64,000 nucleotides of DNA from Siphonodentalium dalli (taxonomy: Eukaryota > Mollusca > Scaphopoda > Gadilida > Siphonodentaliidae): assembly GCA_032622095.1 (NCBI GenBank), contig CP136061.1, forward strand, positions 9,565,287-9,629,286, in the 5' to 3' direction. Made by a program: the position numbers and the translations under genes. Positions 15,714 to 58,650 of this stretch are shown here, one piece after another. How positions within the stretch are numbered: the stretch's first letter is position 1; every line of letters begins with the position of its first letter. The notes below the pieces were generated by a model. The model was not told the DNA's origin. It did not search any database and saw only the letters and a program-made list of their open reading frames with translations.

Positions 15714-17208
15714 ATGAAAGTGTCAATGACACTGTAGCTCAACTTGGAAAGGGAATAATTTAATGTATTACAGTCAATGGAGCCATTAGGAATGTGGAAA
15801 GTTGAATATCTAATACATGTTTATAGACATGAAGAGAAAAGTAAAATCCAAGATGGCTGCTGGCGGCCTTGTTTTCGGCCGAATGACCCCAAAATGAGTC
15901 GTTCCCATCTACATGTCATCGTTAACATCCATGACAAATTTTATGACGATCAGACTAAAGGTACGACCTGTAGCCCATGCTAAAGAATTTAGTCATACAA
16001 AGAGTAAAATCCAAGATGGCTGCTGGCGGCCATGTTTTTTGGCCGAATGATCCCAAAATGACTTGTTCCCATCAACATGTCATTATTAACATTCATGACA
16101 AATTTTATGATGATCAGACTAAAGGTATGACATGTAGCCCGTGCTAAAGAATTTAGTCATACAAAGAGTAAAATCCAAGATGGCTGCTGGCGGCCATGTT
16201 TTCGGCCGATTGACCCCAAAATGAGTCGTACCCATCTACATGTCATCGTTAACATCAATGACAAATTTTATGATGATCAGACTAAAGGTACGACCTGTAG
16301 CCCATGCTAAAGAATTTAGTCATACAAAGAGTAAAATCCAAGATGGCTGCTGGCGGCCATGTTTTTGGGCCGAATGACCCCAAAATTACTCGTTCCCATC
16401 TACATGTCAATATTATCATCCATGACAAATTTCATGATCATCAGACAAACAGTACGACCTGTGGCCCGTGCTAATGGATTAAATTTTTAAATCCAAGATG
16501 GCCACTGGCGGCCATGTTTTTTGTCCGAATGACCCCAAAATAACTCGTTCCCATCTACATTCCAATTTCAACAACCATGACAAATTTTATGATGATCAGA
16601 CTAAAGGTACGACCTGTAGCCCGTGCTAAAGGATTTAGTCATACAAAGAGTAAAATCCAAGATGGCTGCTGGCGGCCATGTATTTTGGCCGAATGACCTC
16701 AAAATGACTCGTTCCCATCTACATGTCATTATTAACATTCATGACACATTTCATGATGATCAGACTAAAGGTACAACCTGTAGCCCGTGCTAAAGGATTT
16801 AGTCATACAAAGAGTAAAATCCAAGATGGCTGCTGGCGACCATGTTTTTGGGCCGAATGACCCCAAAATTACTCGTTCCCATCTACATGTCAATATTATC
16901 ATCCATGACAAATTTCATGAAGATCAGACAAACAGTACGGCCTGTAGCCCGTGCTAATGGATTGAATTTTGAAATCCAATATGGCCACTGGCGGCCATGT
17001 TTTATTTCCAAATGACCCCAAAATTAATTATTCTGGTCTAAATGTTGATGTCAACAGCTATGACAAATTTCATAATGATCCGACGAAAGGTACGACCTGT
17101 AGCCTGCATTGTTGACGCCTTACGTACACACGTACACACGCACACACGGACGACGGACGACAAAGCCATGGCAATAGCTCAAACTTTACAAAGTAAAGTT
17201 GAGCTAAA
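15714..17208 (+). mobile_element. HINE-like element, family F2, copy a (in LINE-1)
   Basis: It starts with ATGAAAGTGTCAATGACACT, a 15-bp palindrome (AGTGTCA-A-TGACACT) at the 5' end. An array of ~155-165 bp repeats follows, each with phrases like ATCCAAGATGGCTGCTGGCG and TCGTTCCCATCTACATGTCA. Then comes a short ACGGACGACGGACGAC tract, ending in a hairpin (TAGCTCAAACTTTAC-AAA-GTAAAGTTGAGCTA). It has no open reading frame of its own. The architecture matches bivalve pearl elements and other non-autonomous Helentrons (HINEs). Other family copies: 26976-28262, 37646-39216 (minus), 47478-47930, 50230-52115, 52200-52752. Confidence 0.8.
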
Positions 17209-18985
17209 AAGGCGGTATAGCGTTCTACTACCGTTCGAAGTATAACAAGTTTTTTCGAGCAAGTAACAAAGTAAATGACTACGCAGTGTGCGCTGAATTT
17301 TCAGGAAAATTGCTCAATATGTCTTCTGATATTGTTTTTGTATCTGCTTATATACCGCCTAGCAATTCTTCATTTTGGAAATCGAATCATAAAGATGAAA
17401 ATGCGTTCTCAATTATAGGGAACGCCCTTTCGAAATATAATTCGAATGAACTGATTATTCTCGGAGGGGATTTGAATGCACGTACAGGAGAACTACCGGA
17501 CTACGTTGCAATGGACAGTGATAATCATATTAATCTACCTGATGATTATTTATTAGATACAGACAAACCCAGACTTAATATGGACAGTGCCGTCAACGCA
17601 TTTGGCAGGCAACTTTTACAATTATGCCAGAGAACAGGCATTAGAATAGCTAATGGCAGATCAGCTGGGGATAGGATGGGCCACTTCACGAGTTATCAGT
17701 ATAATGGTACAAGCGTGGTCGATTACATAATATTAACGGATAGATTTCAGCACACAGTAGATTATTTCTGTGTTAAACTACCTTCCGAGTATTCAGACCA
17801 TTGCCAACTAGCTCTTCACTTTCTGTATCCCTGTTCAACTCCAAGTCACAAAGCTGTAACTACAAAATTACCTTATGAAAAACAAAAAATCAAACTAAAG
17901 TGGAATAGCTTAAGTAAACACAAATCGTGCCATTTATTTAATTCACCTTCCGTGAAGCACGAATTGACTCAGTATCGATTACGCACATACTCTAATGACA
18001 AACAGGGAGTAACCGAAGCGTTAGATGATATAATGTGTCTTATAAACAAAATAAACAGGCACGCCTGCTCCAAGGTTACCGTGAAGAAAAGACATGTACG
18101 CAAAAGAAAATGGTTTGATAACAGGTGTAAAGACTTGAAAATGAGTTTCGACAGTATCGCGAGAGAAATTAGAAATAATCCCTTTAATACAAACCTGAGA
18201 ACCAAATTTTTCATAATCAAAAAATCATATAAGAAGGAATTGAAATATAAAAAAAGAAAATTCTACGCGGAACTCCATAATAGTTTGGACGAATTAGAAA
18301 CAGGTGACCCTCAACAATATTGGCGAATTATAGATGACTTAAGAAATAAAAACAATAAACCATCGGATGATTTGGATGCTGACGCAGCTACGGACTTTTT
18401 CACAAATTTATACTGCCCTACTCAACCTAATTCTTCAGGAAGTGGTCCACCAATATGTCGCTCTAAAACACCTGACATATCTCTCAATAATGGTCCCATC
18501 ACTGCGGATGAAATTCTGTCCGCCACGTGTGAGCTTAAAACAAGAAAGGCGGTTGGTCCGGATCAGATTTCGAATGAATTTCTCAAATGTGCAGTACCTC
18601 TAATGACTGCCGAATTTGTTCAAACGTTCAACAACATTTTACAATCCGGATATTACCCACCTGAATGGAGTCAGTCTGTTCTCAGTTTAATACATAAAAA
18701 GGGAGCAAAAGACGATCCCAATAATTATCGTGCAATAGCATTGAGCTCGTCAGTAGGGAAACTATTCAATAAAATTATTAATCACAGATTAGCTACATTT
18801 ATCGATGCTAACAACATAATCAGCGAAAACCAATTCGGCTTTTGCACTGGCAAAAGTACAGCCGATAGCGCCTTTGTCCTACATGCGTCAATACAGAAAT
18901 ATAAATCCTCTAAGAAACCTGTCTATGCAACATTTGTCGATTTTAGGAAAGCTTTTGATACTGTTAATCGACAAATTCTGTTTAG
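17209..18985 (+). pseudogene. LINE-1 ORF2 part 2: endonuclease and RT N-terminal half
   Basis: Continuous frame after the F2 insertion. Endonuclease blocks: IVFVSAYIPPSN, LIILGGDLNARTG (catalytic Asp-Asn), GTSVVDYIILT and SDHCQLALHF (Asp-His). A basic linker of ~150 residues is followed by reverse-transcriptase blocks: KAVGPDQISNEFLK, NNYRAIALSSSVGKL and FVDFRKAFDTVNRQ (first catalytic Asp). The frame runs into the F1 element at about 18986, in the middle of the polymerase domain. The missing part resumes at about 21078. Confidence 0.85.
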
Positions 18986-21077
18986 AACGAGAGGCCGATC
19001 ACGATCGGCAGATGTTTAACCCATACCTTGGCGATAGCGATTAGCTATTTTTATAAATTTTATAAATCCTTACACCAACCTTTTCATGAGTGCAAAAGTT
19101 TCAACAATTCACACTTTATATAGTGATCGTGTGAAAAATATTTAGTTATCACATTGTGTCAACAGGATTGGTGGAGGATGTTAATATTTTTAAGCAAATA
19201 AACCAAATGACCCTCACTATGCAGGTTAGGGGTGTGTTATCGTCAACTATGCCAAGAACTATAAACATAATCAATGGAAATATTTGAGTTATCAAATCGG
19301 ATAGAATGGGGTTAATCTTACCCAAACTAATGAACTGATAAACACAAAATAGTCTATGAAAAGCATGTCATTGGATTTAGAACCCCATACAATAAGTCAG
19401 TCTCAAGAATACCAGCACCATTAATATTATCCTGGAGCCCAAATGCAATTGAGGGAATTTCAAAATAAGACATTTCCTCTAATGATGAATATTCAATTGG
19501 TGATGTATTGAAACCCTTACTGAACCTGGCTCAAAGTGAAAGGGATAATATTATATCTGTCTATCGCATAATATGTGTCTATGGAATGGTTTAATTTTAA
19601 TCCCAAATCCATGCAAATCAAAAGTGGATCACCATCAACCTGGACATAACATAGGAGAATGATTAAATGAAAAGCATCAAAACCATATGATGTGTGGAGA
19701 GGGTTAATCATTTTCAATGACATCATGTTATGGAACTAAGGAATGTGTGGATAATTTTTTGTCTAAGATAAGACAAGTGTTTGTAAAGAACAATGTCTGT
19801 AAAACAACACTACAAAGTAACAATGGACTATTCCAATTTATTATTTTAGAATAGGTGTCATATAGTGTGTGCATATAGCTAATGTAATAAACCTGTTTCA
19901 ACAAAGGGGTTAACTTCATATTGCACAGAAAGCAGAACTCCACCAGAGAGTGAGTAATCAATCACAGTTTGACATAATTATGATAACAAGTCCAGCCAGC
20001 CAGTGGTACCACTATCATGCTTTATAGCATGTAGTATCTAATGTCATAGTGATAATTAACTCATTTCAATAACACACATTGCTGTGGGATATATGTTCTC
20101 TTCAAATTCCCAGCAGTAATTACTTGAATTATAAAGGGTCATAACTCTGTTAAAATATATCGGATCAAACCCATATTCGAACTCGATCTGTATTTAGGGG
20201 TGATAAATTCATATACCAAATTTTGTGTTGATCAGATAAAAAATGTTTTGAGTCATAGCAGCTTGGGTGAATTCTAAGTAAACATAAGAGTGAAAAGGGT
20301 TAATTAAACAATACCAAAAACCATACAGATGAAGAACGTGCTAAGAAAAACCTAGGTAAGAAATATGAGGCAGATCAGAAGAAATATGTTCAACTTATTG
20401 CATTGGATAGCATGTGTGTAAAGGGTTAATTATTTTCTAAACTGATCAACCAATCAATACCAAAAACTATACAGGTGAGGGGTGTGTCATCATAAACCTA
20501 CATATCAAATATGAACACAATCGGACAAAAAAATATTTCGGTTAGAGCATCGGATTTTTTTTAAATTTATTTTATTTTCGAAAAAAGGGTCATAACTCCT
20601 TTAAAATAAATCGGATCAAACCCATATTCGAACTCGATCTGTATTTTTGGCTGTGAAACTCACATACCAAATTTGGTTCCAATCAGATAAAAAATGTTTG
20701 AGTTATGGCAGAATGCGTGAATTCTAAGTTGAAAAAGGGCCATAACTCTGTAACAAAATCTCGGATCAAACCCAAATTCGAACTCGATCTGTATTTTGGG
20801 CTGAGAAACCCATATACAAAATTTGGTTTCGATTGGATAGAAAATGTTTGAGTTATCGCATTACTCGTAAAGTGACGGACGGACGGACGGACGGACGGAC
20901 GGACGGACGGACGGACGGACGGACGGACGGACGGACGGACGGACGGACGGACGGACGGACGGACGGACGGACGGACGGACGGACGGACAGACAGACAGAC
21001 AGACGGACGAACGACGAGTGGTCAATCCGGGCAATGACACTATGTTTACCATACTATGGTATGGGTAAACATAAAAA
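18986..21077 (+). mobile_element. HINE-like element, family F1, copy a (in LINE-1 RT)
   Basis: The 5' end AACGAGAGGCCGATCACGAT carries a palindrome GCCGATC-AC-GATCGGC. The body has ~150-bp repeats with GGGCCATAACTCTG and TTCGAACTCGATCTGTATTT phrases, then a long GGAC microsatellite, and a 3' hairpin GTTTACCATA-CTA-TGGTATGGGTAAAC followed by ATAAAAA. About 2.1 kb, no coding capacity. The flanks join back as ...ATTCTGTTTA / TGGAAATAGC..., which restores the LINE frame. More copies: cluster 29561-33512. Confidence 0.8.
20874..21008 (+). repeat. (GGAC)n then (AGAC)n microsatellite
   Basis: About 27-28 uninterrupted GGAC units followed by four AGAC/CAGA units. It sits just inside the 3' hairpin of the F1 element. 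A shorter ACGG/ACAG tract is found at the same place in other copies (32293-32326, 33414-33439), so it is part of the element and has expanded here. Confidence 0.95.
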
Positions 21078-22559
21078 TGGAAATAGCTGGCATTTCAGGA
21101 TTTTAATTGGAAATATTAAAATCACTATACAAGTCAAGTCTTTATAGCATAAATACAAGCAACGGTATCAGTCCTTCACATCTCTCCACAATTGGAGTAC
21201 GCCAAGGATGTATATTATCGCCCTTACTATTTAAAATATTCATTGATGACATTAAGGACATTTTCGATGACAAATGTGAACCGTTACGTATTGGATCTAG
21301 CGCGCTCAATCATTTGCTCTTCGCAGATGACTTAGTTTTGGTGTCTGAGAGTCCAGAAGGACTTCAGCGATGTTTAGACAAACTCCAGTCCTTCACGCGA
21401 CAAAATTCCCTGTCGATAAACACGGAGAAGACGAAAAGCTTGATTTTCAGATCGAGGAAGCCAAAAGTTCACCCACAGTTTTTCCTCGAAGATAATCCCT
21501 TGGATCTGGTTGATGAATATACCTATCTCGGAATGACGTTTTCCAGCACAGGAAAATTCACGCAGGCCGTAAATAATTTGAGTGGCAAAGGGCGAAAAGC
21601 TCTTTATTCAATATCTCGTGCGTGTGCAAATAAAGCGCCCCTCCCTCTAAAAACTTCCCTTAAACTGTTTGATAAGTTAATCAAGCCTATACTTCTATAT
21701 GGCAGTGAATTATGGGCAAGTGAATTAACAATCAAAAATCACGAACGTTATCCGTGTGAGAAACTTCATATCACACATTGCAAACAAATACTTGGAGTCG
21801 GTAAATACGCTTCAAACAATGCAGTCAGAGCCGAATTAGGGAGCTACCCGTTATATATTGACGCTTTGTGTAGAATGGCTTCATATGCGGTTAAAATCTC
21901 ATCCAGGTGTACCAGTGGCATATTAAATGATGCAATGCGCGAACAGCGCAGCGGGGTAGCTGGGAATTCGATATTCAAAAGTCTGGAGTCATTTGGCTTG
22001 ACGCTTGACTATACCCTCCGACATTACTAACAACAAGCCTCTAATTAACAAGCTTCTAAAGTCATTTAAATGCCAGCTCAGAGAAAATCACACTGAAAAT
22101 TTCAGAACAAGTATGCGCGATGGTGTTTCAAAAACTGGAAATAATAAATTAAGAACATATCGACTTTTTAAAAGAGATATTGTCCTAGAACCCTATCTCT
22201 TAAATACAGCGTCGCTAGCTGACCGCTCAGCATTTACACGTCTAAGAATAAGTAATCATTCTCTTGCCATTGAAAAGGGTCGTCACGCCCAACCACCGAT
22301 TCCTTTAGCCAGAAGATTATGTGTTATGTGTAATGACGAAGCCATCGACGATGAGAGGCATTTCCTAATTGATTGTCCAACATTTCTTCCTATACGGAAT
22401 GAACTCATTAAAATTATGGGTCATAATTTTATCAATTTTCGATTGATGAGTAGATTGGACCAACTCACACATATATTAGCCAATGGCACAGCTCAAATAT
22501 GCTCCCAAATCTGCAACGTAGTCAAGCGGTTATTCGAGGCCAGATCACAGCTAAACTAG
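21078..22559 (+). pseudogene. LINE-1 ORF2 part 3: RT C-terminal half and zinc-binding tail
   Basis: Resumes after the F1 insertion with IAGISGF, then a TAA at 21104-21106, then LEILKSLYKSSLYS. Reverse-transcriptase blocks GVRQGCILSPLLFKIFIDD and HLLFADDLVLV (the YADD-type catalytic box, here FADD) are intact. A single-base frameshift occurs near 22008: the frame from 21107 stops at 22030 and the continuation to 22559 is in another phase. The C-terminus has LCVMCNDEAIDDERHFLID and CP, a C-x2-C ... H ... C zinc-binding pattern common at the end of CR1/L2-group ORF2 proteins. Stop TAG at 22557-22559. Confidence 0.85.
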
Positions 22560-22779
22560 ACAAATTACGTGTGTTGAATCATGTATGATAACTCACTATA
22601 CAGATAAAAATATACGCAATTAATGAATATATATATATATATATTATCACTATTATTCAATGTATGTAATGTCAATATATTGTATGATGTCACATGATAC
22701 ACTGTTAATATTATTATACATGGCAACCTGTCCCTATAATGGGGCGTCTTTTGCTGAATAAATCTATCTATCTATCTAA
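22560..22779 (+). repeat. LINE-1 3' UTR with (ATCT)n tail
   Basis: A ~220-bp untranslated tail with a (TA)n tract near 22629-22645, a small hairpin CCCTATAATGGGG, and the terminus GCTGAATAAATCTATCTATC. The tetranucleotide end marks the LINE boundary and suits the reverse-transcriptase recognition signal of this LINE group. Confidence 0.7.
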
Positions 22780-23308
22780 ACCAGCTACTGTGGGATGTGT
22801 TGATGTGGATAAATATGATGCCAAGATTCATGAGTTCATGTCCCCATGAAATGGCACTTATATAAGAAACCACAAAAAATGATGACGATGCAATCAAAGC
22901 CATTCATAGTATAATACAATAATACTTGTAACTGATCTCTCATGGTGTAACAGATGGCTAAAGAAACATTCACTGGTCATCCAACACAGATTTCCAATGT
23001 TTTTTGGTGAATTTCTCCACATTAACTTAATCCTATTCCTAAAAAAAAGTGCCAAGGGCAAATAACAAAGATACATTTTAACCCAAGTAGGAGTAAATAT
23101 TTACATTTTACTTAGTTCACACACGGTGTTCTCTGAAATGGAACAGTCGATGTGGTTGGATTCAATAATCGTAGTTGATTGCTACATTTTTCCAGTGGAT
23201 ATAGTGTTTGATAACTTAACGGTTTATTCACTAAAGTAAGTCCATAATATGCTTTAAAGATACTGTCTATTCAGTTATTATGCGGATATCTGAATTTTTT
23301 AATTTTAA
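22780..23308. other. Intergenic, no gene seen
   Basis: AT-rich; no coding region or repeat structure that I can support. Confidence 0.5.
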
Positions 23309-23932
23309 ACTAGAGGTGTGACTGTCCCAATGGGACTAAGGATACCCCCCCCCCCCCCCCGTGTTTTTAAAATACTAAGATGTTTCACATGTCAGTAAAC
23401 ATTTAGTTAAAATAATAAAATAACAGTTCCCATTGCAGGTGCACAACCCTAACCATAATCTTAAACCTATTGACTGAAAAATGTATGAATAAAAGCTCGG
23501 ACAAAATTATGCATGTTGCGAAAATGTTCTTAAGTCGAAAAAGGGGAATAACTCCACACAAAAATGTCGGACAGACATCATAATCGGAGGTGCACAGGTT
23601 CCCATGGTACTAAATATCAGTGCCAAGATTCAGAAACATTGACCCATAAATATAGGAATAAAAGCTTGGACAAAATTATGCATGTTGCAAAACATTTTCT
23701 AAGTCGCAAAAGGGGGGATAACTCCACCAAAAAAGTCCAACAGATATCATAATCGCAGGTGCACAGGTTCCCATGGTGGTTGATGTCTGTGCCAAGTTTC
23801 ACGAAAATTGATCAAAAAAACGACTGAGAAAAACTCCGGACAAATTTGTGTCCACGGACGGACGGCTCGACGGACGACGGACAAGCTGACTCCAGTATAC
23901 CCCCCCTAACTTCATTGCGGGGGGTATAATAA
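23309..23932 (+). mobile_element. HINE-like element, family F4
   Basis: It begins AACTAGAGGTGTGACTGTCCC, with a palindrome GTCCC-AAT-GGGAC, followed by a C homopolymer (about 23346-23360). The body has two to three ~150-bp units with AAAAAGGGG-ATAACTCCAC, CAGGTGCACAGGTTCCCATGG and GACAAAATTATGCATGTTGC. Then comes ACGGACGGCTCGACGGACGA, and a 3' hairpin TATACCCCCC-TAACTTCATTGC-GGGGGGTATA. A 3' fragment of the same family is at 54527-54806. Confidence 0.75.
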
Positions 23933-24626: not shown

Positions 24627-25322
24627 TAGTTTAACAAGAGGTACGCTGTCGCGTGGCATTTGCCCCTGACCGTAGCAATTTGGATTAAGCATGGACGAAA
24701 GGAAACCCAAAAACAAGCGATCTGGAAACCAAAAAACAAGCGAAAATTCAAATTTTCTAAGTTGAAAAAAGGGCCATAACTCTGGCAAAAATCATCAGAT
24801 CATACCCAAATTCGCACTTGACATGTATTTTCATATAACTGATCCACGGGATTTGCAATCGTACCACCAAAGCTCACGCTATCATCTGGAAACCAAAAAA
24901 ACAAGAGAAAAATTTAATTTTCTAAGTAAAAAAAGGGCCATAACTCTGGTGAAGATGGGTGGACGAAACCCGCGCTATGCATGTAGCTGTTCCCCCATGC
25001 TGCTCTATCACCATACCAAATATCAGCTAAATCTGCCCAGCGGTTGCTGAACAATAATGCAAAATGTTTGTACGGACGGACAAAATTGAATTTTGTAAGT
25101 AAAAAAAGGGCCATAACTCTGGTGAAAATGGGTGGACGAAACCCGCGCTATGCATGTAGCTGTTCCCCCATGCTGCTCTATCACCATACCAAATATCAGC
25201 TAAATCTGCCCAGCGGTTGCTGAACAATAATGCAAAATGTTTGTACGGACGGACGGACGTACGTACGGACGGAGACGTCGACTATATACCCGCCGACTTC
25301 AAGTCAGGGGCATAATAATAAG
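24627..25322 (+). mobile_element. HINE-like element, family F5
   Basis: The 5' end AACAAGAGGTACGCTGTCGC contains ACGC-TGTC-GCGT. The body has ~150-bp repeats with AAAAAAGGGCCATAACTCTG and ATGCATGTAGCTGTTCCCCC. The last two units (about 24930-25080 and 25086-25245) are nearly identical, so they were duplicated recently. An (ACGG)n tract at about 25247-25271 and a 3' hairpin (TATACCCGCC-GACTTCAAGTC-AGGGGCATA) close the element, followed by ATAATAA. Confidence 0.7.
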
Positions 25323-26975: not shown

Positions 26976-28262
26976 ATGAAAGTGTCAATGACACTGTAGC
27001 TCAACTTGGAAAGGGAATAATTTCATGTGTTAAAGTCAATGGAGTGATTAGAAATGTGGAAAGTTGAAAGGCCTAGTTATGCAAAGAGTAAAATCTAAGA
27101 TGGCCACTGGCAGCCATGTTTTTTTGCCGAATGACCCCAAAAAGACTCATTCCCATTTACATGTCATTATTAACATCCAGTACAAATTTCATGATGATCT
27201 GACAAAAGATACGACCTGTAGCCTGTGTCAAAGGATATAGTCATGCAGAGTAAAATCCAAGATGGCTGCTGGTGGCCATGTTTTTTGGCGAACAACCCCA
27301 AAATGACTTGTTCCCATCTACATATCAATATTAACATCCATGACAAATTTCATGATGATCAGACGAGCAGTATGACCTGTAGCCCGCGCCAATGGATTGA
27401 ATTTTGAAATCCAAAATGGCCATGTTTTTTTGCCGAATGACCCCAAAATAACTCGTTCCCATCTACCTTGACAATGTCAACATTCATGACAAATTTCATA
27501 AAGATCGGACCAAAGGTACGACCTGTAGCCCCGCGCCAAAGGATTTAGTCATACAAAGAGTAAAATCCAAGATGGCTGCTGGCGGCCAGGTTTTTTGGTC
27601 GAATGACCCCAAAACGACTCGTTCCCATCTGCATGTCATTGTTAACATCCATGACAAATTTCATGAAGATCTGACCAAAGCTACGACATGTAGGCCGCGC
27701 CAAAGGATTTAGTCATGCATAGAGTAAAATCCAAGATGGCTGCTGGTGGCCATGTTTTTTGGCCGAATGACCCCAAAACGACTCGTTCCGATCTACATGT
27801 CATTGTTAACATCAATGACAAATTTCATGAAGATCTGACCAAAGCTACGACCTGTAGCCCGCGCCAAAGGATTTAGTCATGCAAAGAGTAAAATCCAAGA
27901 TGGCTGCTGGCGGCCATGTTTTTTGGCCGAACAACCCCAAAATGACTCGTGCCCATCTGTCAATATTAACATCACTGACAAATTTCATGATGATCAGACA
28001 AGCAGTATGACCTGTAGCCCGCGCCAATGGATTGAATTTTGAAATCCAAAATGGCTGCTGGTGGCCATGTTTTTTTTGCCGAATGACCCCAAAATGACTC
28101 GTTCCCATCTACATATGAATGTCAACATTCATTACAAATTTAATAAAGATCAGACCAAAGGTATGACCTGTAGCCCACGGGAAAGGAAATTGTTGATGGA
28201 CACACGGACGACGGACGCCAATCCATGGCAATAGCTCAAACTTACAAAGTAAGTTGAGCTAA
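26976..28262 (+). mobile_element. HINE-like element, family F2, copy b
   Basis: Complete copy: 5' palindrome ATGAAAGTGTCAATGACACT, about seven ~155-bp internal units with AAGATGGC(T/C)GCTGG and ACATGTCATTGTTAACATC phrases, a short ACACGGACGACGGACG tract, and the 3' hairpin TAGCTCAAACTTACAAAGTA-AGTTGAGCTA. No reading frame is conserved between units. Confidence 0.8.
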
Positions 28263-28543
28263 TAATGAGTTGTCATGAAATAGATCAACACCCAAGCCTT
28301 GAAATAACTGGCCTTTCACGGTCATTGGCAGGTTGAAACAAACCAAAAGTTTAATATCACAGGCTGAAATGCTTTTGTCCCTGCCATTGTGACAGACCCT
28401 AATTTAGGTGATGATCAATCACAGAAATGGCAAAATCAACCAGTAATCTGTAGTAACTCTTAATATTAAAGGGGTATTGTACACTAAATCTGGCCATTTT
28501 TGGGACTATCTAATGTTAACTCAACAGAATATATGCAACAAAT

Positions 28544-28728: not shown

Positions 28729-29560
28729 GGTGCTTTTTACCTAAATGCATGTGAATTATGACGTCATATAATTTTTATATATTTCTATATACCATGAGAG
28801 AAATTACCGGGTACGTTTATTTGTGAATTTAACACGTGACTTCCGGGTGGTGACTGTGCAGAATCCAGCAGAAACTACAGGGTGCTCCGATATAACGGAG
28901 GAATATGCAGACAACAACAACAACTGATCAAATTCATTCCCAGATTCTAGAATGTACCCGACTTTCAAGTTTACCCTATTCAGTTCTTTCTGAGGATTAA
29001 TTACAGCCTTTTCATCTGATAAAAATCATTGGTATATCATTAGCATAATAATTAATTATCCCCCGTCAAGCGACCGTCCTGTCAGTGTCATCCGGCTTAC
29101 GGCAGTTACTTGATCGGAAATTACTTCCGTATATCCCATAGACCGATAAGGCCTTCACCTTCGCTTCATGGCAAACAATTTTCACAAATGTACGAGTGTA
29201 CGTAGATTAATTAATCGCTTGATTTCGTGACAATCGACAGTTACTGAGTTAGGCTTCACTGTGAACTGTTACAGACAACAATGATCAAGATTCCAGAATC
29301 ATTCAATCAACCAAAAAGTTCGAAGTTCAAAGAAAGATAAAAAAATGAAAGAACGAATTCTGTGTTACGTGTAAATTGTGATACTAAAATTCTATATGTT
29401 TCCTAGTTACCATCTTCAACTTCAAACTTAAGTTCAAGGAATTGATATCTGATGAGGATTCTGGTGGTGTTGTGAACACAACAGCACAATGCGTGCTCCT
29501 GGAGGCATTTTTCTCCAAATCCAAGATTTTTTTAAAGGTATGTCTGTTTGCTTTAAATTA
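28729..29560. other. Intergenic, no gene seen
   Basis: Less AT-rich than its surroundings near 28840-28900 and 29060-29160, but I see no exon with supported splice sites or start. It is bounded by a foldback element and the F1 cluster. Confidence 0.4.
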
Positions 29561-32500: not shown

Positions 32501-33512
32501 ATAGGTACACATAAAAATCAAAATAAATTAATCAATCAATAGGGGCAAAGAGTGTGTCAAAATAAACCAATATAAAATGAGACATGGTATCAGATGAAAG
32601 TATCAGGAATGTTGAGATGTGTTAATCTTTAACTACAGAAATCCATGCAAGTGAATGAGGAGAAACCTGGAGATAACAGAAGAATGATTAATTGAAATTT
32701 AAAATGAGAACATCCCTACAAATGAATAATAGAGTATTCCAATTAAAACTTTAGAACTGAATGGGACAGTCCATTGAATCATGAATGGGTACAGCTTCAT
32801 CACTATCATAGAGCTATGTCCTATATACAGTGGCTAAAAATAACTAATATTTCAATAAGACATCACTTCTGCAGTCTCTCAGAACACTATCTATGCAGTT
32901 AAGCTGCATTACTGGTAGTTAATTGTAATCTACCTGGGTTATCAAAAACTCAAATCTGTTCAATTCTTAGTTGAAAAAGGGCCATAACTCTGGTATAACA
33001 AATCAGATCTAACCCATATTTGAACTCGATCTGTATTTTGAGTTGAGAAACTCACATACAAAATTTGGTTCCTATCAGTTGAAAAATTGTTGATATAACG
33101 AAGCATTCATGAATTCTATGTCAAAGGGCCATAACTCCATAAAAAAATATCGGATCAAACCCATATTCGAACTCGATATGTATTTTGGACTGAGCAACTC
33201 ACATACCAAATTTGGTTACAGTCAGATAATATTTTTTGAGTTATGGCAGCATACATGAATTCTAAGTTGAAAAATGGCCATAACTCCATAAAAAAAACTC
33301 GAATCAAACCCATATTCGAACTCGATCTGTATTTGGTGCTGAGAAATTCATATACAAAATTTGGTTCCGATCAGATAGAAAATATTTCAGTTATCGCACC
33401 ATACGTAAAGTGTCTACAGACAGACAGACAGATAGACGGACTAACGACGAGTGGTCAATCCGGACAACGACACTATTGTTTACCATACTATGGTATGGGT
33501 AAACATAAAAAT
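29561..33512 (+). mobile_element. Nested cluster of family F1 HINE-like elements
   Basis: Two 5' ends (AACGAGAGGCCGATCACGAT at about 29561 and 30336) and at least four 3'-hairpin-type ends (near 30130-30170, 32340-32397, 32458-32516 and 33470-33512; ACCATACTATGGTATGGGTA form) are packed in 4 kb. The simplest reading is that a complete copy (30336-32397, with its own ACGG/ACAG tract at 32293-32326) inserted into an older copy, with further fragments. Internal phrases GGGCCATAACTC, ATATATCGGATCAAACCC and TTCGAACTCGATCTGTATTT match copy a at 18986-21077. G- and C-homopolymers lie at about 30508-30521 and 30763-30776. Confidence 0.7.
30008..30292 (+). repeat. Tandem duplication, ~160-bp unit, in the F1 cluster
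   Basis: Two copies (about 30008-30130 and 30168-30292) share GAATTGGATTTAATGTTGCT, GATTTTGGACCGATTTAAAC and GGCAGAGTTATAATGGTGTT almost identically. A piece of the F1 3' end lies between them. Confidence 0.75.
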
Positions 33513-41197: not shown

Positions 41198-41199
41198 TA

Positions 41200-46279: not shown

Positions 46280-47470
46280 GGTTATAATACACCAAATACA
46301 AATTAGTAGAGTGATTTCCCCTACCCCTGGGACCCCCAAGCTAGGATCAGCATAAAAAAAATCCTGGCAGCTGAATGGTAATGATACATGGATAAAAAGT
46401 GCACGAAAAATGCACAAAAGTGTTTCCCGACGAGAAACATCAAATATAGCCATATGGTAAACGGTTAGGGCTGTCCAATTGGCGAATAATTTATGGGAGG
46501 GGTTGGTGTTTTTTTCGATGTCATTTTTTTCTCCATTTTAATGGTAGTGTGACGTTTGTTAAGCCGTACTCATTATCCCCATAATACAAATTGGAAACAT
46601 AAAGCACGTGATATGACAGCTTATTTGGCGTGGGAGCCGTCCAATAAAATTAAAAATTAACCCCTCTGATGCCATTTCTGCTTCTCGTTGTAGAACCAAA
46701 AATTGCCATTTTCGACCTATTTTTGAGCCCAATTTTTAATGAACGTGAGACCATATTTTTGGACCCCAGACAACCTAGATGAACGCCAAGGCAGATTTGT
46801 CGGGTTTGGGCACAACATGGAAGTAAAGCGTGATGTCAGTATGGACAATACTCTAAAATATGATGCAAAATCGGACCAGTATTGGGTCAAACAAAGTTGA
46901 ATTGCCCCTGTTAGATGACAGGTTGACAAAAAAGCCTACCCTGGAAGTTTGCAGAAATGGTTTGTCGATCCAACGCGCCCAAATTTCTGCCAATAAATGC
47001 CTTCTTGTGAAGGGACAATTTTGGATTTCTGTCGATTTTTTTCGAAAATTGTGTAGGTACGCCCAATGTGAACCTAAGTGCGCCCAATTCGCCCAGCGAA
47101 TTGTATGGTATATTTTCTGGAAGTGGTATCTACAAGCTATCAGATCGACAACCTGTATGTACATCGGCATTGTTTACTTTGCCAAAATGCAGCTAAAATG
47201 AAAAAAAAATTGACATTAAAGTCAAAGTAATTTTTTTGCACAATCAGCTATGGGTGCATGGTGGCAGAACATGTTAATAACGTAAGAACACAGACATGTT
47301 ACGAATCAAATTTATTTATTTTGATGTGGGTATATAAATGGACGCAATTTAATATCGTTTGGGCGACTTTCTTGTCTTTCCAGTGACCACTATAGGTTAT
47401 AATACACCAAATACCAATTAGTAGAGTGAATTCCCCTGGGACCCCCAAGCTAGGATCAGCATAAAAAATT
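46280..47470. repeat. ~75-bp direct repeats flanking a 1.0-kb segment
   Basis: GGTTATAATACACCAAATAC plus AAATTAGTAGAGTGA...CCTGGGACCCCCAAGCTAGG plus ATCAGCATAAAAAA occur at 46280-46358 and again at 47395-47467. The enclosed segment has no family motif; one open frame of 113 codons (46860-47201) has no recognised domain. Too short and without TG...CA ends for LTRs. It may be the remains of a tandem duplication or of repeat copies that recombined. Confidence 0.55.
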
Positions 47471-47477
47471 TCAGGAA

Positions 47478-47930
47478 GTTACGATCAAAGCTACAACCTG
47501 TAGCCCGCGCCAAAGGATTTAGTCATGCAAAGAGTAAAATCCAAGATGGCTGCTGGCGGCCATGTTATTTGGCCAAACGACCCCAAAATGACCCGTTCCC
47601 ATCTACATGTCAATATTAACATCCATGACAAATTTCATGATGATCAGACGAACAGTATGACCTGTAGCCCACGCCAATGGATTGAATTTTGAAATCCAAA
47701 ATGGCCTCCAGCGGCCATGTTTTTTGGCCGAATGAGCCCAAAATGACTCGTTCCCATCTACATGCCAATGTCAACATTCATGACAAATTTCATAAAGATC
47801 AGACCAAAGGTACGACCTGTAGCCTGCGCCAAAGGAAATTGTTGACGGACACACGCATACACGGACGACGCCAAACGGACGACGCCAAACCATGGCAATA
47901 GCTCAAACTTACAAAGTAAGTTGAGCTAAT
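47478..47930 (+). mobile_element. HINE-like element, family F2, copy d (5' truncated)
   Basis: Two and a half internal units (GTAGCCCGCGCCAAAGGATT, AAGATGGCTGCTGGCGGCCA), an ACACGGACGACGCCAAACGG tract and the complete 3' hairpin ATAGCTCAAACTTAC-AAA-GTAAGTTGAGCTAA. The 5' palindrome is absent. Confidence 0.75.
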
Positions 47931-48055
47931 AAATACTACTGAAAGGGAAGTAATTCTGATTCTAGCACTAATAACAACATTCGAGTCCATGGTGAGGCAA
48001 CTATAAAACAAAATAGAGAAAGGATATTGAGTTATAGGAATTACGCATGGTACAC

Positions 48056-49785: not shown

Positions 49786-50229
49786 ATTACAACTATAACA
49801 CTTTATTTTCAGCTATCTACTATTAATCCATCTCAGAAAATTAATTGCCAAAACATGATTTTCCGTTGGACAATCTCAAAATTTGGTTGATGGGCCGAAA
49901 ATAAATTGGCCGAAATTGTCAACGAGCATCTTCGTCAAGCAAACTTTCAGAAAATAAATATTTACGCTTCAACTTCAATTTTCAGCAATAAACAATCCAT
50001 GATAAAAAGAATTACTTGTTTGGCTACGATTTACGTTGAAAATGACTCAACAACAACCCAATAATTATCAACACACACAGAGTCGAATCCGCGATCTCCG
50101 GTAAAATTAACTCCAGACCAGTCCAGACTCCAGTCCGATCACGGCCGATGTAATTTGTAAACAAATGCCCTGATCATATCTAATGTTCTCGTGACAAATG
50201 TCATGTCATTAGCATTGTAATAAAGCTGA
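49786..50229. other. Intergenic, no gene seen
   Basis: No coding region or repeat that I can support. Confidence 0.5.
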
Positions 50230-52115
50230 ATGAAAGTGTCAATGACACTGTAGCTCAACTTGGAAAGGAAATAATTTCATGTGTTAAAGTCAATGGAGTG
50301 ATTAGGAATGTGGAAAGTTGAAAGGCCTAGTTACGCAAAGAGTAAAATCTAAGATGGCCGCTGGCAGCCATGTTTTTTTGCCAAATGACCCCAAAAAGAT
50401 TCGTTCCCATTTACATGTCATTATTAACATCCAGTACAAATTTCATGATGATCTGACAAATGATACGACCTGTAGCCTGTGTCAAAGGATTTAGTCATGC
50501 AAAGAGTAAAATCCAAGATGGCTGCTGGCAGCCATGTTTTTTTTGGCCAAATGACTCCAAAATGAATAATTCTCATCTACATGTCATTGTTAACATCCGT
50601 AACAAATTTCATGAAGATCTGACCAAAGCTACGACCTGTAGGCCGCGCCAAAGGATTTAGTCATGCAAAGATATAATCCAAGATGGCTTCTGGTGGCCAT
50701 TTTGTTTGGCCAAATGACCCCAAAATGACTCGTTCCCATCTACATGTCAATATTAACATCCATGACAAATTTCATGATGATCAGACGAGCAGTATGACCT
50801 GTAGCCCGCGCCAATGGATTGAATTTTGAAATCCAAAATGGCGACTGGTGGTCATGTTTTTTGCCGAATAACCCCAAAATAACTCATTCCCATCTACATG
50901 ACAATGTCAACATTCACGACAAATTTCATAAAGATCGGACCAAAAGTACGACCTGTAGCCCGTGCTAATGGATTGAATTTTGAAATCCAAGATGGCCACT
51001 GGCGGCCATGTTGTTTGTCCGAATGACCCCAAAATGACTCGTTCACATCTACATTCCAATTTCAACAGCCATGACAAATTTCATGATGATCAGACTAAAG
51101 GTACGACCTGTAGCCCGTGCTAAAGGATTTAGTCATACAAAGAGTAAAATCCAAAATGGCTGCTGGTGGCCATATTTTTTTGCCGAATGACCCCAAAATG
51201 ACTCGTTCCCATCTATATGTCATTGTTAACATCCATGAAAAAATTTATGATGATCCGACCAAAGGTACGACCTGTAGGCCGTGCCAAAGAATTTAGTCAT
51301 GCAAAGAGTAAAATCTAAGATGGCTGCCAGTGGCCATGTTTTTCGGCCGAACAACCCCAAAATTACTCGTTCCCATCTACATTTCAATATTAATATCCAT
51401 GACTAATTTCATGATGATCAAACGAACAATACGACCTGTAGCCCGTGCTAATGGATTGAATATTGAAATCCAAGATGGCCACTGGCAGCCACGTTTTTAT
51501 CCCGAATGAACCCAAAATGACTCGTTCCCATCTACATTTCAATGTCAACAGCTATGACACATTTTATGATGATCCGACCAAGGGTACGACCTGTAGGCCG
51601 TACCAAAAAATTTAGTCATGCAAAGAGTAAATCTAAGATGGCTGCCGGCAGCCATGTTTTTTGGCCGAATGACCCCAAAATTAGTCGTTCCCATCTACAT
51701 GTCAATGTTAACATTCATGACAAATTTCATGATGATCAGACCAAAGGTACCGGTACGACCTGTAGCCCGTGCTATGGATTGAATTTTGAAATCCAAGATG
51801 GCCGCTGGCAGCCATGTTGTTTGTCCGAATGACCCGAAAATGACTCTTTCCCCATCTACATTCCAATTTCAACAGCCATGACAAATTTCATGATGATCAG
51901 ACTAAAGGTACGACCTGTAGCCCGTGCTAAAGGATTTAGTCATACAAAGAGTAAAATCCAAAATGCCTGCTGGCGGCCATGTTGTTTTGCCGACCAAAGG
52001 TACGACCTGTAGCCCGTGCTAAAGGAAATTGTTGACGCATCACGCACACATGCACGACGGACGACAAAGCCATGGCAATAGCTCAAACTTTACAAAGTAA
52101 AGTTGAGCTAAAAAT
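50230..52115 (+). mobile_element. HINE-like element, family F2, copy e
   Basis: The 5' palindrome ATGAAAGTGTCAATGACACT is at 50230. About eleven ~155-bp internal units alternate two subtypes (those followed by GATTTAGTCATGCAAAGAG and those followed by GATTGAATTTTGAAATCCA). The 3' tract is ACGCACACATGCACGACGGA and the 3' hairpin ends at about 52113. The longest F2 copy in the window. Confidence 0.8.
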
Positions 52116-52845: not shown

Positions 52846-53386
52846 TAACTATACACGTTGTCATAGACGCTTTTTCGAAATATGGACAAATAAAAAACAC
52901 GGCTCGAACTTCGAGTGTTCAATCGAGCTTTACAAAAACATGAATACGGCTTAAATGATCAGACATAAGTATAGTATAGTGTATATAAGAAGCAGAGACA
53001 TGGAATATAGACATAGACTACTTGTTCAAATGTTTCTAACATTGAGTTTTCGAGTTGTTTTTACACTGAAATTATAATGGAATTCTCGTTCCGCGCTTTC
53101 GCGTCAACCGGGGACGTCGTGTGGGGCGACGGTTATAGACTCGCCCAATTTTCTTAAAGTGTCACTACGCGATGTGACTCGTCTACTGCAAAGTCTATGC
53201 ACTGATAGACGCAGGTCACGCGGTAGCCTCTCGACCAATCAAATGCCCGCATTTCGACGAAAACGAAAGTAGTTGTAATTATACATACTAAATGACAATT
53301 TGACAAACAAATATCAATAAACCAAATAACATCCAAATACATATTCACACTCAAAGAAATGAAGAACAAATAATACCAAATTAGTA
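52846..53386. other. Intergenic, no gene seen
   Basis: Unique-looking sequence with a short CpG-rich stretch near 53090-53130; no coding region supported. Confidence 0.45.
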
Positions 53387-54530
53387 ACAAGAGGTGGCAT
53401 CAGAGATGCTGTGTCTCGTTTTAGGTTGCTCACCGCCGGTGGCTACCGCCAATTGGTGTGCATCAGTATCGGTAGACTAATTAATAGGTAAAATCGGTTA
53501 ATATTTGTTCAAGTTATCGACTAATTAAGGGCCATAACTCTATCAAATTTTATCGGGCCAGGCTGGTTTTCGAACTCGTCCAGGATATTATTGGAAGACA
53601 TCTATATACCAAATTTTAGTTGACGTTTGTTGAAGTTATCGCGCTAACGAGCTAAAAATTCACGAAAAATGACTAATTAAGGGCCATAACTCTATAAAAT
53701 TTTATCGGGCCAGGCTGGTTTTCGAACTCGTCCGAAATATTCTTGGCAAGTATGTCTATTCCAAATTTTAAACAAATCGGAGGACGTTTGTTGAAGTTAT
53801 CGCGCTAACGAGCTAAAAATTAACGAAAAATGACTAATTAAGGGCCATAACTCTATCAAATTTTATTGGGCCAGGCTGGTTTTCGAACTCGTCCAGGATA
53901 TTATTGGAAGACACTTATATACCAAATTTTAGTTGAATCGGATGACGTTTGTTGAAGTTATCGCGCTAACGAGCTGAAAATTTGTGAAAAAATGACTAAT
54001 TAAGGGACATAACTCTATCAAATTTTATCGGACCTGGCCGGTTTTCGAACTCGACCGAGATATTCTTGGGAGACACCTATATACCAAATTTCAATCAAAT
54101 CGGATAACGTTTGTTGAAGTTATCTCGCTAACGAGCTGAGAAAATTCGTGAAAAATGACTAATTAAGGGCCATAACTCTATCAAATTTTATCGGACCAGG
54201 CCGGTTTTCAAACTCTTCCGAGATATTCTTGGGAGACACCTATATCCCAAATAAATTTCAATCGAATCAGATAACGTTTGTTGAAGTTGTTGCGCTAACG
54301 AGCCTAAAATCAGTGAAAAATGGCAAAGGGCCATAACTCTGTAATAAATGTGCGGACGAACCCGATTTTTTGTCTGCAGCTTACGTGCATGGATATGTAC
54401 TCACACACCAAATTTTTAAATCCGTCAATAAACGGTTGAGTTATAAGCAAAACACGCCGCCCGTCCGCCCGCCCACCGTCCCTCATCAAACTATAAGTCG
54501 AGTTTTGGAAAATAACTCGACTAAAAACAT
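53387..54530 (+). mobile_element. HINE-like element, family F3
   Basis: The 5' end AACAAGAGGTGGCATCAGAG has a palindrome GCATC-AGA-GATGC. The body has five to six ~155-bp units with TAATTAAGGGCCATAACTCT, CAAATTTTATCGGGCCAGGC, TTTTCGAACTCGTCC and GAAGTTATCGCGCTAACGAG. A GCCCGTCCGCCCGCC-type tract replaces ACGG here. The 3' hairpin is AGTCGAGTTTT-GGA-AAATAACTCGACT. Confidence 0.75.
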
Positions 54531-54806
54531 TGACCTAAAAATGTAGGAATCAAAGGTCGGACAAAATTATACATGTTGCAAAAAAATTCTAAGTCGAAAA
54601 AGGGGGGATAACTCCACCAAAAAAAGTCCAACAGACGTCATAATCGCAGGTGCACAGGTTCCCATGGAGGTTGATGTCTGTGCCAAGTTTCACGGAAAAT
54701 GATCATAAAACGACACAGAAAAACTATGGACAGACGGACAGACGGACGGACAAGCTGATTCCAGTATACCCCCCCCCCCCCCACAACTCGTTACGAGGGG
54801 TATAAA
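54527..54806 (+). mobile_element. HINE-like element, family F4, 3' fragment
   Basis: It directly abuts the 3' end of the F3 element. It contains TAAAAATGTAGGAATCAAAG, TCCAACAGACGTCATAATCG, CAGACGGACAGACGGACGGA and the 3' hairpin TATACCCCCCCCCC...GAGGGGTATA. The 5' half of the family (present at 23309) is missing, as if the F3 element had landed in it. Confidence 0.7.
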
Positions 54807-55334: not shown

Positions 55335-55660
55335 GCGATGTATGGTGATACACCGAGTGGCCACGGCATGTCGATAATGTATAATGAAGCACTTACCTTG
55401 GTTTGGTGACCTGATATCTTGTGGCAGCTAATCTGACTTAAAGCGATGTATGGTTACACACCGAGTGGCCACGCCATGTCGATAATGTATAATGAAGCAC
55501 TTACCTTGGTTTGGTGACCTGATATCTTGTGGCAGCTAATCTGACTTAAAGCGATGTATGGTTACACACCGAGTGGCCACGCCATGTCGATAATGTATAA
55601 TGAAGCACTTACCTTGGTTTGGTGACCTGATATCTTGTGGCAGCTAATCTGACTTGCAGC
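55335..55660. repeat. 108-bp tandem triplication copying a splice donor
   Basis: Units start with CACCGAGTGGCCACG at 55351, 55459 and 55567 (period exactly 108). Each contains, on the minus strand, the end of the candidate exon (CAGGTCACCAAACCAAG) and its donor GTAAGTGC. The copies are almost identical, so the event is recent. The third unit merges into the candidate exon at 55613. Confidence 0.85.
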
Positions 55661-56175: not shown

Positions 56176-58650
56176 ACTAGCAGGGTTACCTGGCGTTGCC
56201 CAGGTTAAAGTGATGTGAAACCCTTTGTGGATGTTTGATGGGAATAGAGAATACTCTTGCTCAAAGTGTTACATGTATTCTCATAAATTGTTTATTCAAA
56301 TAGCATCACAAAACATGATTCTTACACATGGAATATAAGTAGTGGCTCACTTTGTCAATTGTCATTTTGTTTATCGCGATTAATCCGTTCCACCAATTTA
56401 TTTATTTACAACTGCGTATACGTCAGACGTTATGACATGAAACATGAACATCATAAACACATTAATTCACGACATTTGGGTTTTACATCTATAGAGATGT
56501 ATCAATCAATCTAAGATTTTGAGGACACCTGGCTATCATATCTCCATGAAGATACAGATGTTTTAAAGGTATTCAATCCGATCAGACAGTCCCCATATCA
56601 TCTAGATACAGCAACAACAACATTTCTTCAAAACATGCTTTAGTTATCAGAATCGATTAGTTACAACAAAATAATGCTAACCACTGTCAACTATGGTATA
56701 AAATTTCCCAAAACTTGTTATTTATCAACATTTTGTTCAACAAAATATGACCTTATTATCACTTAAGTATCACGAAATTTGGCCATATTACCACTTGATT
56801 TTAGAGTTATCCATCTTAATTGACAATTTTGCGCGAAACCTTCTGTTTGACCACGTGGTTCTGGGCCACATATTATTACACATCTCGAGAAATAACAAAT
56901 TTCGAAAATCGATATCTGATCACTCTGTGTTTTGATGGGTGGGTTCCTCAACTCGATTCAAATATTTTTTACCCCGAAACCAAAGAAATAGTAATTTATG
57001 AGCATCTGATCGGATTGAGTACCTTTAAAGAAATGTCCAGGTGCTCCTCTGTTCATGGCGCTATATATTGGCGAAATATTCTCAGTTTAAAAGAAATGTT
57101 GCCATGCACATATATCAGCTACATGTGCCCGACACAGTGAGATTTTAGTTGTTTATTGTAAATTTTTTGCGGAAACTATATTGAATGGAACAGACTCAAT
57201 TGTGATATATTATATACATGATCCATTCTAATATGCAATTCTCTGATGGTTCGAGTTCTCTCAGTTTGCAAGAATATGTGTATCTCTTAAATGAAATGAT
57301 AAATATACGTTTAATACTTTCTCCTAGGTATCTGTTTCGCTTGCTCATTAAACATTTTTTACACGCACATTTTGATACCTCATATCATTTGAGAAGAACG
57401 TGTATGAATTTGATGGTAATTGGCACTAAACATATTTTTTATCAGTTTTGGTGACCCTCCCGTCCCTATTTCAGACTGAAACGGCGCCACTGTTGTCATC
57501 ATTAAACCACACACTTAAGACTCATTATGGAAATGCATATATATAAAATTCAATGGTGAACTTGTCAAGTATACAAATTTAGGGGCCCCATATCTCTCAT
57601 CCAAACGGCAACAATTTGGTGTATCTAAACCACACGGTTAGATTCCTCTTATCACAGAGAAGACTATGTATCAATCTGGTGGAAATCTGCGCTAAAAATA
57701 TTGTTTATCTTTTTTTGTGTCCCTCTCACCCTCTCTCACCCAAACAACACCAATATGACATCTTTATATCACATGATTAGACTCCTCGTATCATGGATAA
57801 GAATGTGTATCACCTTGGTGGAAATTGGCGCTAAACATATTGCGTATCAATTTTGGTGCCCCTCTGCCTTTCAGTGCACCCCTGACTCGAATGACGCCAC
57901 TTTTGACAGATTTAGGTCACACCATTAGACTCCTGATACCATGTCGATGATAATGTATAAGTGTGGTGGCAATCGGTGACTAAACCCATTCTTATCAAGT
58001 TTAGTGCCCCGCCCACAATCTTTCATCCAAACGACAGCAATTTGGCATCTTTAAATCACACAATTAGATTCCTTGTATCATGGAGAAGAATATTTATCAA
58101 GTTGGTGGAAATCGGCGCTAAAATTAATTTGATCAATTTTGGGGCCCATCTCCACTTCTGTGCATCCCTGACGCGAACGGTGCCACTTTTGAAATATTTC
58201 AACCACACAATTAGATTCTTCATATCATGGGAATTATTATATATAAGTTTCATGACAATCGCGATAAATATTTGTATGCCCCTCCCCCTTTTCTGCCCCT
58301 GACAGCAACGGTGTCACTTTAGAAAATTCTAACCTGCACCATTATCTTTCTCGTAAAAAGTTACCCCTAGTAGACCCCTTTGGTGCCTCGGTGCTAAAAT
58401 TAGCTTTCTCAAATTTGGTGCCCCTCTCCACTGCCTTGCATCCCCGACTTGAATGCCGCCACTTTTGACATATTTAAACCACACCATTAGATTCCTTATA
58501 TCATGGGGATGATTATATATAAGTTTCGTGGCAATCGGCGACAAAATGTTTTTTTGCCCCTTTTCTGCCCCTGACAACGACGTCATTATAGAAATTCTAA
58601 CCAGCACCATTATCTTTCTCATAAAAAGTTACCCATAGTAGACCCCTTTA
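56176..58650 (+). mobile_element. HINE-like element, family F6
   Basis: It starts CTAGCAGGGTTACCTGGCGT, with a palindrome ACCTGG-CGTTG-CCCAGGT. A long array of strongly diverged ~130-145 bp units follows. Recurring phrases are TAGATTCCTTATATCATGG, GTGGCAATCGGCGCTAAA, TTTTGGTGCCCCTCTCC and CGGTGCCACTTTTGA; at least seven units lie between 57370 and 58640. AAAAGTTACCCCTAGTAGACC occurs twice near the end (58357, 58624). The 3' terminus is not sharply defined. Several open frames cross the array, but they are not conserved between units. Confidence 0.55.

Follow-up and report, generated by a model that had tools for sequence, protein, structure and literature searches.

Four satellite-carrying HINE families of Siphonodentalium dalli share a 3′ terminus with a candidate autonomous Helentron

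A 64,000-nt stretch of the genome of the scaphopod Siphonodentalium dalli, hereafter referred to as the window (C1:9565287–9629286; 2.23-Gb assembly of 9 contigs, in which C-numbers denote contigs and L-numbers fetched loci), contains several families of non-coding elements, F1 to F6, some of which end in the same short motif. This raises the question of whether a single transposition machinery acts in trans on these families, as was suggested in an earlier note made from the sequence alone. Repeats of this type are typical of molluscs and their relatives. The structures described below support the assignment of F1–F5 to the HINEs, i.e., non-autonomous Helentrons, and suggest that F1, F3, F4 and F5 are probably HINEs of one Helentron lineage, plausibly moved by its Rep in trans.

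The terminal motif AACNAGAGG occurred 7 times in the window as against 1.48 ± 1.17 expected from shuffled sequence, and 7 occurrences were reached in 0 of 100 shuffles. All 7 lay on the plus strand, i.e., in one orientation. Four of them were located at 18986 (F1), 23308 (F4), 24633 (F5) and 53386 (F3), which bears out the earlier note's claim that these four families share a terminal motif, the start positions given there being one base off for F3 and F4 and six bases off for F5. Two more, at 29560 and 30336, belonged to further F1 copies, and one, at 36537, to an orphan end, so that 6 of the 7 were found at clear element ends (F1 three times; F3, F4 and F5 once each), while only a weak palindrome accompanied the motif at 36537. 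Viewed as HINE 3′ ends, the termini of F1, F3, F4 and F5 all consisted of CCTCTNGTT beside a palindrome. The core motif GGGCCATAACTCT, also proposed beforehand for F1, F3 and F5, was confirmed there by 11 exact matches; with up to 3 mismatches, 32 matches were obtained as against 11.65 expected. The motif scans of the window detected neither AACNAGAGG nor GGGCCATAACTCT in F2. The HINEs of the window are as follows.

18986..21072, minus strand: full-length F1 HINE, 2,087 bp net (sliding by 2 nt possible), in the reverse-transcriptase part of a long interspersed nuclear element (LINE); 3′ end CCTCTCGTT at 18986–18994, 5′ subterminal inverted repeat (subTIR) and inverted repeat at ~21040–21072.
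29560..30160, minus strand: F1 copy, 3′ end intact (29560), 5′ end incomplete.
30336..33507, minus strand: F1 copy with a single 3′ end (30336, palindrome mutated), whereas 5′ hairpin ends follow one another at three points (near 32396, 32525 and 33507).
15712..17207, minus strand: F2 HINE, inserted into the endonuclease portion of the LINE that also holds the full-length F1 copy (an A-run leaves the boundaries uncertain by ±2); TTTCAT at the 3′ end in place of CCTCTNGTT.
26976..28263, minus strand: F2 HINE, second full copy.
50229..52113, minus strand: F2 HINE, third full copy; another F2 fragment at 52213–52749.
37657..39216, plus strand: F2 copy in the opposite orientation, 5′ end damaged.
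47460..47932, minus strand: F2 fragment comprising the 5′ end and about two repeats.
53386..54527, minus strand: F3 HINE; 3′ end CCTCTTGTT at 53386–53394, 5′ hairpin AGTCGAGTT...AACTCGACT.
54525..54806, minus strand: 5′ half of an F4-type HINE abutting F3; this composite is present at 3 more loci, which have their flanks in common with it.
23308..23929, minus strand: F4 HINE; 3′ end CCTCTAGTT at 23308–23316, 5′ hairpin TATACCCCCC...GGGGGGGTATA.
24633..25314, minus strand: F5 HINE; 3′ end CCTCTTGTT at 24633–24641, 10-bp subTIR TGCCCCTGAC.
36537..36545, minus strand: orphan CCTCTAGTT 3′ end with a weak palindrome.

Two sets of related sequences were noted outside the window. A HINE-like family with 174-bp repeats (L064 1270–2480; L068 ~7645) terminates with a variant of the common 3′ end, GGACGACAGTCC-ATCTCTTGTT. 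Three contigs of a viral collection (L001, L002 and L003) matched the core pattern and contain AAGGGCCATAACTCTG; AACNAGAGG was absent from all three, and the F1 end had no match in the collection.

The published order of HINEs is a T-run, the 5′ subTIR, its inverted repeat, a microsatellite, tandem repeats, the 3′ subTIR, a palindrome and the 3′ end (PMC4067079, PMC7492417), and reverse-complementing F1–F5 yields this order. In the standard orientation, the elements run from the T-run through the subTIR and inverted repeat, a GTCC-type microsatellite and satellite-like repeats to the 3′ subTIR, the palindrome and CCTCTNGTT (the last in F1, F3, F4 and F5); F1, for example, reads TTTTT-ATGTTTACCCATACC-ATAGTATGGTAAACAT ... 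GTCCGTCC ... repeats ... GGTATGGGTTAAACAT-CTG-CCGATCGTGATCGG-CCTCTCGTT. By this arrangement, AACNAGAGG is the 3′ end of the HINEs and not their 5′ end. The common blueprint claimed for F1–F5 and, as probable, for F6 therefore stands for the order in F1–F5; its orientation was reversed, because the subTIR with its inverted repeat, the microsatellite and the T-run sit at what had been called the 3′ end, and F6 has the ends of a Helitron. F2 follows the same plan as the other families with a different 3′ end and unrelated repeats.

As HINE criteria we applied subTIRs of ~11–15 bp near both ends and a palindrome ~8–35 bp from the 3′ end, with p values for subTIRs, hairpins and palindromes obtained against shuffles. 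SubTIRs common to both ends were detected in F1c (15 of 16 nt, with one gap), F2 (11/11), F4 (9/9) and F5 (10/10), with p values of 0.0005–0.025, those of F4 and F5 being slightly short of the expected length. The 5′ hairpins were significant in F1c, three F2 copies, F3 and F4, but not in F5, nor in F1a as cut there. In at least one copy of every family from F1 to F5, a palindrome was located 5–16 nt from the 3′ end, at a distance of 8 (F1a), 5–6 (F2), 11 (F3), 16 (F4) and 10 nt (F5); taken alone, it was significant only in F2 (p 0.03). Tandem arrays of ~130–175 bp and ACGG-type microsatellites were present, and the longest stop-to-stop frame overlapping F1–F5 was 156 aa. Tandem repeats with a GTCY-type microsatellite and no coding capacity are what is expected of HINEs.

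The copies of F1 elsewhere in the genome allowed its ends to be located. The F1 probe gave 2,230 candidates, and the 40 that were scored (the best ones), including the window copy, were all identical over 315 bp, which, for a set selected as the best, points to a recent burst. Of 20 copies fetched, 8 (L012–L015, L019, L020, L023 and L027) were 5′-truncated, lay inside one larger repeat with an identical flank, and were set aside before the ends were counted. The remaining 12 and the window copy had flanks of their own. In these copies the 3′ motif was present by choice of probe and the opposite end lay outside it; this far end read ...ACAT (5′ ATGT in the HINE orientation) beside a run of 5–6 T (HINE orientation) in 13 of 13. 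When an F1-like end was used as the query, the similarity at all 35 places outside the Helentron block described below stopped at query 194–226, and at 27 of them at 215–221, the terminus being 215. The alignment of family ends recommended in the earlier note was thus run for part of F1 only, and there the ends stayed fixed while the flanks differed.

Empty sites of F1 were also recovered. The joined LINE flanks were matched across the junction at 40 of 40 scored places (104 candidates), two of which were exact over 200 of 200 nt (C7:204853511 and C2:145746276), and the 38 others crossed the junction at 93–99%. Read as a HINE, F1 has the target CCATTTTT/CTAAACAG; the cut falls within the T-run or just at its end, and no target-site duplication was left. 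Translated across the join for which exact empty sites exist, the LINE frame gives FVDFRKAFDTVNRQILFRKMEIAGISGF, a single stop and LEILKSLY.... Helentrons are listed with TT as their target, and Helitron2 with TTTT followed by T or C (PMC5148889); the F1 target fits both. The identification of F1–F5 as HINEs of the pearl type, already made in the earlier note, is upheld by their anatomy and, for F1, also by the exact empty sites and by fixed ends with differing flanks.

A profile search for Rep genes (Helitron_like_N; 150 of 457 candidates scored) gave 151 matches. Among the 30 best (L032–L061), motif 2 was found by pattern in 16, all of which had RGLPHxH, the canonical Helitron (Helitron1) type. 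Rep genes of this type are frequent in the genome, and these high-scoring matches were rejected as candidate HINE partners. Frames of up to 2,864 aa were present among the lower-scoring matches. At C2:5.30 Mb, an open frame of 2,590 codons contains OTU, DUF6570, Rep, a PIF1 helicase and a C-terminal apurinic/apyrimidinic (AP) endonuclease (Helitron_like_N 3.2e-24, OTU 1.1e-7, PIF1 4.8e-27, Exo_endo_phos 1.2e-5). Judged from these profile matches, the frame has the domain set of a Helentron, namely Rep, a PIF1-family helicase and an AP endonuclease in one frame. The residues given as diagnostic for the Helentron Rep are (F/Y)xR upstream of motif 2 and RGSPHxH (PMC4067079); in the C2 Rep, FYR is present and motif 2 reads ARGAKHWH.

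Downstream of the frame, the C2 and C3 copies of this Helentron align at 98% in L065/L066 and at 95% in L068/L069. The latter alignment ends at L069:3962 and L068:3700, both right at GATTCCATGGAATC-TGA-CCTCTAGTT, and the end letters, which were read at C2 and C3 only, are palindrome-CCTCTAGTT at both. One 3′ end was located 13.6–16.2 kb downstream of Rep at all 4 traced loci (C2:5.30, C3:300.74, C8:82.48 and C8:164.61 Mb). Used as the query, the Helentron 3′ end gave 63 matches (40 of 3,538 candidates scored). Eight of the scored places aligned over the whole length from query position 1 to the terminus at 401, all four traced Rep loci among them; at 5 of these 8, the similarity stops at 401–413. 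A candidate autonomous Helentron with the shared terminus, for which a search had been recommended and whose absence would have counted against the earlier note, was found as far as tested: a Rep–helicase–endonuclease element with CCTCTAGTT at the downstream end of the shared block. Its 3′ subTIR, CCATGGAAGTATA, has a 13/13 counterpart in a fragment consisting of a 5′ subTIR and inverted repeat, followed by AGAGTTATGGCCC, which is the GGGCCATAACTCT core. The fragment matches the repeats of F1, F3, F4 and F5 above all 500 shuffles, and those of F2 not at all. What is shared with the Helentron block is the 3′ motif and the core repeat. Upstream of the frame, five places (the four Rep loci and C3:49.09 Mb) share a nested F1-like element. 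A 10-bp subTIR-like stretch before the start codon was considered as the 5′ boundary and rejected, because all 5 start-codon-region places continue upstream; the point at which the shared region begins falls, in turn, within another high-copy repeat.

These observations are consistent with the following model. The Rep of the lineage would nick at the 5′ end formed by the subTIR and inverted repeat, the helicase would peel off a single strand, and the 3′ palindrome with CCTCTNGTT would mark the cut and the joining into the T-run of the target, by analogy with the palindrome and CTRR of canonical Helitrons. The non-coding families would live off this Rep in trans, and divergence may have gone further in their 5′ subTIRs than in the motif at the 3′ terminus. 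That a single machinery serves the families in trans, as the earlier note proposed, is plausible but not proven; the part of the argument that invoked a terminus on otherwise dissimilar families did not hold, and the 5′ end of the Helentron was not found.

Several observations weigh against this model. The subTIRs differ among F1, F3, F4, F5 and the autonomous family, and F3 has no clear subTIR (p 0.49, shuffle test). The 3′ palindromes taken alone gave p values of 0.058 (F1a), 0.108 (F3), 0.16 (F4) and 0.59 (F5), and that of F1c is mutated. The F4/F3 composite has the same flanks at 4 loci and is therefore part of a larger repeat, with no evidence of cross-family mobilisation. In the Rep of the candidate Helentron, motif 2 is RGAKHWH instead of RGSPHxH. 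Beyond nested copies, no long identity of the F families to the stretches of the Helentron block that were compared was detected, whereas published partners are 84–99.9% identical, and the fragment with the 5′ subTIR and inverted repeat sits in a tandem satellite, not beside the Rep gene. On its 5′ side, the shared sequence extends upstream into other high-copy repeats, and C3:49.09 Mb has the upstream sequence, yet lies outside the Rep matches and 3′ ends listed. On its 3′ side, 3 of the 8 full matches, the query's own locus included, run on into the same flanking repeat, and the other 32 of the 40 that were scored show similarity only from query positions 152–238 onwards and continue past the terminus into the flanking repeat, indicating that the Helentron 3′ end has been taken up into a separate repeat. 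This end lies ~11 kb past the stop codon, and nested elements occur in the interval, so that the supposed element could instead be a duplicated block of greater extent.

The central repeats were compared by local alignment (1–2 units per family, 300 dinucleotide shuffles each). F1 and F3 scored 70 over ~125 bp as against a shuffle maximum of 37, F1 and F5 scored 103 as against 40, and F1 and F4 scored 48 as against 38, a second F1 unit compared with F4 being reached by 3 of 300 shuffles. The best pairs of F1 with F3, F5 and F4 were thus above all 300 shuffles, contrary to the statement in the earlier note that the families are not alike outside the motifs. The F1 repeats thus have homologues in each of F3, F4 and F5, but not in F2 or F6, every comparison of either with another family being reached by at least 15 of 300 shuffles. 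F4–F5 was marginal (2/300 and 18/300), and F3–F4 was not above chance (89/300 and 96/300). As central repeats related to those of F1 accompany the shared end in these families, much of the sharing of the terminus can be put down to common descent. It is a real possibility, if not the probable one, that it explains all of it: F1, F3, F4, F5 and the Helentron would derive from one ancestor, each family would have had its own lost or unsampled partner, and the terminus would simply be inherited. Homology in the central repeats as well as in the termini agrees with this, as do the Rep matches, which fall into several score and frame-length groups, and the differing subTIRs, which by the published 11-bp rule define different families (PMC4067079); but F1, with its 40 selected best copies identical over 315 bp, looks recently active, so that some working machinery probably exists now, and the genome contains a Helentron whose 2,590-codon frame is open and whose 3′ motif is the same.

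It is unlikely, though it deserves consideration, that the CCTCTAGTT closing the Helentron block is part of a different HINE, situated at the margin of a more extensive duplication, and that the Helentron's own 3′ end lies elsewhere. The ~11 kb with nested HINEs that separate the end from the stop codon would suit such an arrangement, as would the extension of the block upstream into other repeats and the 32 of 40 scored copies of the end that lie in another repeat. Against it, the 24 kb of downstream sequence read at four loci contained no further CCTCTNGTT (~1.2 kb after the C2 frame and other stretches being unread), and the similarity stops ≤2 nt from the terminus at C3 and at C8:164.6 Mb.

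We consider it improbable that the 3′ end was spread by capture, whereby one successful element would have passed its CCTCTNGTT end to unrelated non-autonomous elements through recombination or read-through. Composites are common here (an F4 half with F3, F1 with three 5′ ends, and HINEs nested in the Helentron block), but the repeats of the families with this end are related to those of F1, and F2, which is without the end, is also without the repeats, as descent predicts. Moreover, the single composite tested is not a mobile unit. It is found at the F3 locus, which proved to consist of an F4 5′ half (54525–54806) set against F3; its junction was full-length at 4 of 40 scored places, and the chimera was rejected as a cross-family mobile unit because all four loci have the same flanks. 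Short inverted repeats near both ends would suit miniature inverted-repeat transposable elements (MITEs) or some other cut-and-paste class, where pearl was originally placed. Such an identity is hardly credible, since these repeats are subterminal and asymmetric, the palindrome lies on the 3′ side, and the F1 site shows no target-site duplication.

The interpretation that we prefer, a Helentron lineage whose Rep moves these HINEs in trans, can be extended into a tentative proposal that falls somewhat short of probable: a single Helentron transposase lineage may move at least 4 HINE families with diverged 5′ ends via one strictly kept 3′ terminator (palindrome plus CCTCTNGTT), these elements also seeding satellites of the genome, including a ~1.75-kb tandem unit. 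If so, the 3′ end, and not the 5′ subTIR, would define the users of the machinery.

The tandem unit has a period of ~1,746 bp, starts at the tip of C1 (C1:1592–54856) and contains a HINE 5′ half with the GGGCCATAACTCT core. It is also present in internal arrays at C1:5.50, 169.4, 214.4 and 229.9 Mb and at L069:3963–9262, and may represent a HINE-derived, possibly subtelomeric satellite. The Rep loci at C1:169, C1:214 and C2:5.3 Mb lie ~20–60 kb from copies of the unit.

Two further elements of the window bear on the families above.

56177..58716, minus strand: F6, a non-autonomous canonical Helitron by its ends (structure only); 3′ end at 56177 with AACCCTG-CTAG^T after the palindrome ACCTGGGCAACGCCAGGT; 5′ end of the TC type, ~58716.
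15540..22560 (approximate), plus strand: host LINE (endonuclease and reverse transcriptase), interrupted by F2 and F1.

F6 contains an internal 139-bp array; its identity as a HINE was ruled out by the canonical Helitron 3′ end, hairpin-AACCCTG-CTAG^T. The LINE frame reads through at the F2-type join, which is a weak test. Elsewhere in the window, a MITE-like 221-bp repeat (40979–41199 and 44069–44286) is 89–90% identical in both orientations and is therefore itself palindromic, and a long inverted repeat (fold-back) was seen by eye at 49604–49780. Further arrays have units of 26 bp (48952–49437, 18.7 copies) and 108 bp (55335–55655, 3 copies at 98%). A second LINE-like frame has its endonuclease domain at 60506–61561, and a GDSL-lipase-like frame is located at 14307–14885.

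Among known systems, the canonical Helitrons (Helitron1) are similar to F6, in which the palindrome ends 11 nt before the 3′ CTAG at an A^T-type site, but differ from F1–F5, which have no TC/CTRR ends and possess subTIRs and a T-run target. FoHeli and other Helitron2-like elements of Fusarium resemble the present families in their asymmetric inverted repeats and in termini conserved between distinct subgroups, and differ in their terminal sequences, their fungal hosts and the lack of satellite arrays in their description (PMC5148889). With the HINEs, DINE-1 and Helentrons as described, the likeness extends to the anatomy, to Rep, PIF1 helicase and AP endonuclease in one frame, and to a TT preference without duplication; OTU, given there as an additional open reading frame, is in the same frame here, and whereas those HINEs are deletion derivatives 84–99.9% identical to their Helentron, only the end and the core repeat are shared here (PMC4067079). 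The bivalve pearl elements, with central repeats of ~160 bp, have been re-filed as non-autonomous Helentrons (PMC7492417). In the oyster Crassostrea gigas, 11 Cg_HINE elements were described in one genome, with a T-rich/TT target and no duplication (PMC7492417). They likewise have a 5′ subTIR with its inverted repeat, a GTCY/GTCC-type microsatellite, repeats mostly of 140–180 bp, a 3′ subTIR and a palindrome; some of them share flanks and repeats and others nothing, and the kinship of the F3, F4 and F5 repeats to those of F1 resembles group 1 of the oyster HINEs (PMC7492417). Satellite-array HINEs, several per genome (PMC7492417), and 3′ ends conserved between Fusarium subgroups (PMC5148889) are thus already known, while our searches of open-licence PMC papers turned up none in which a mollusc Helentron is connected with its HINEs through a shared 3′ end. 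In the oyster description, satellite-carrying HINEs are abundant and no protein-coding, autonomous partner could be related to them (PMC7492417); here, in contrast, a candidate Helentron has the same 3′ motif as the HINEs and is linked to them by what is presumed to be a transposition end. With this link it becomes possible to test which of the two Helentron ends determines the elements that the enzyme is able to mobilise.

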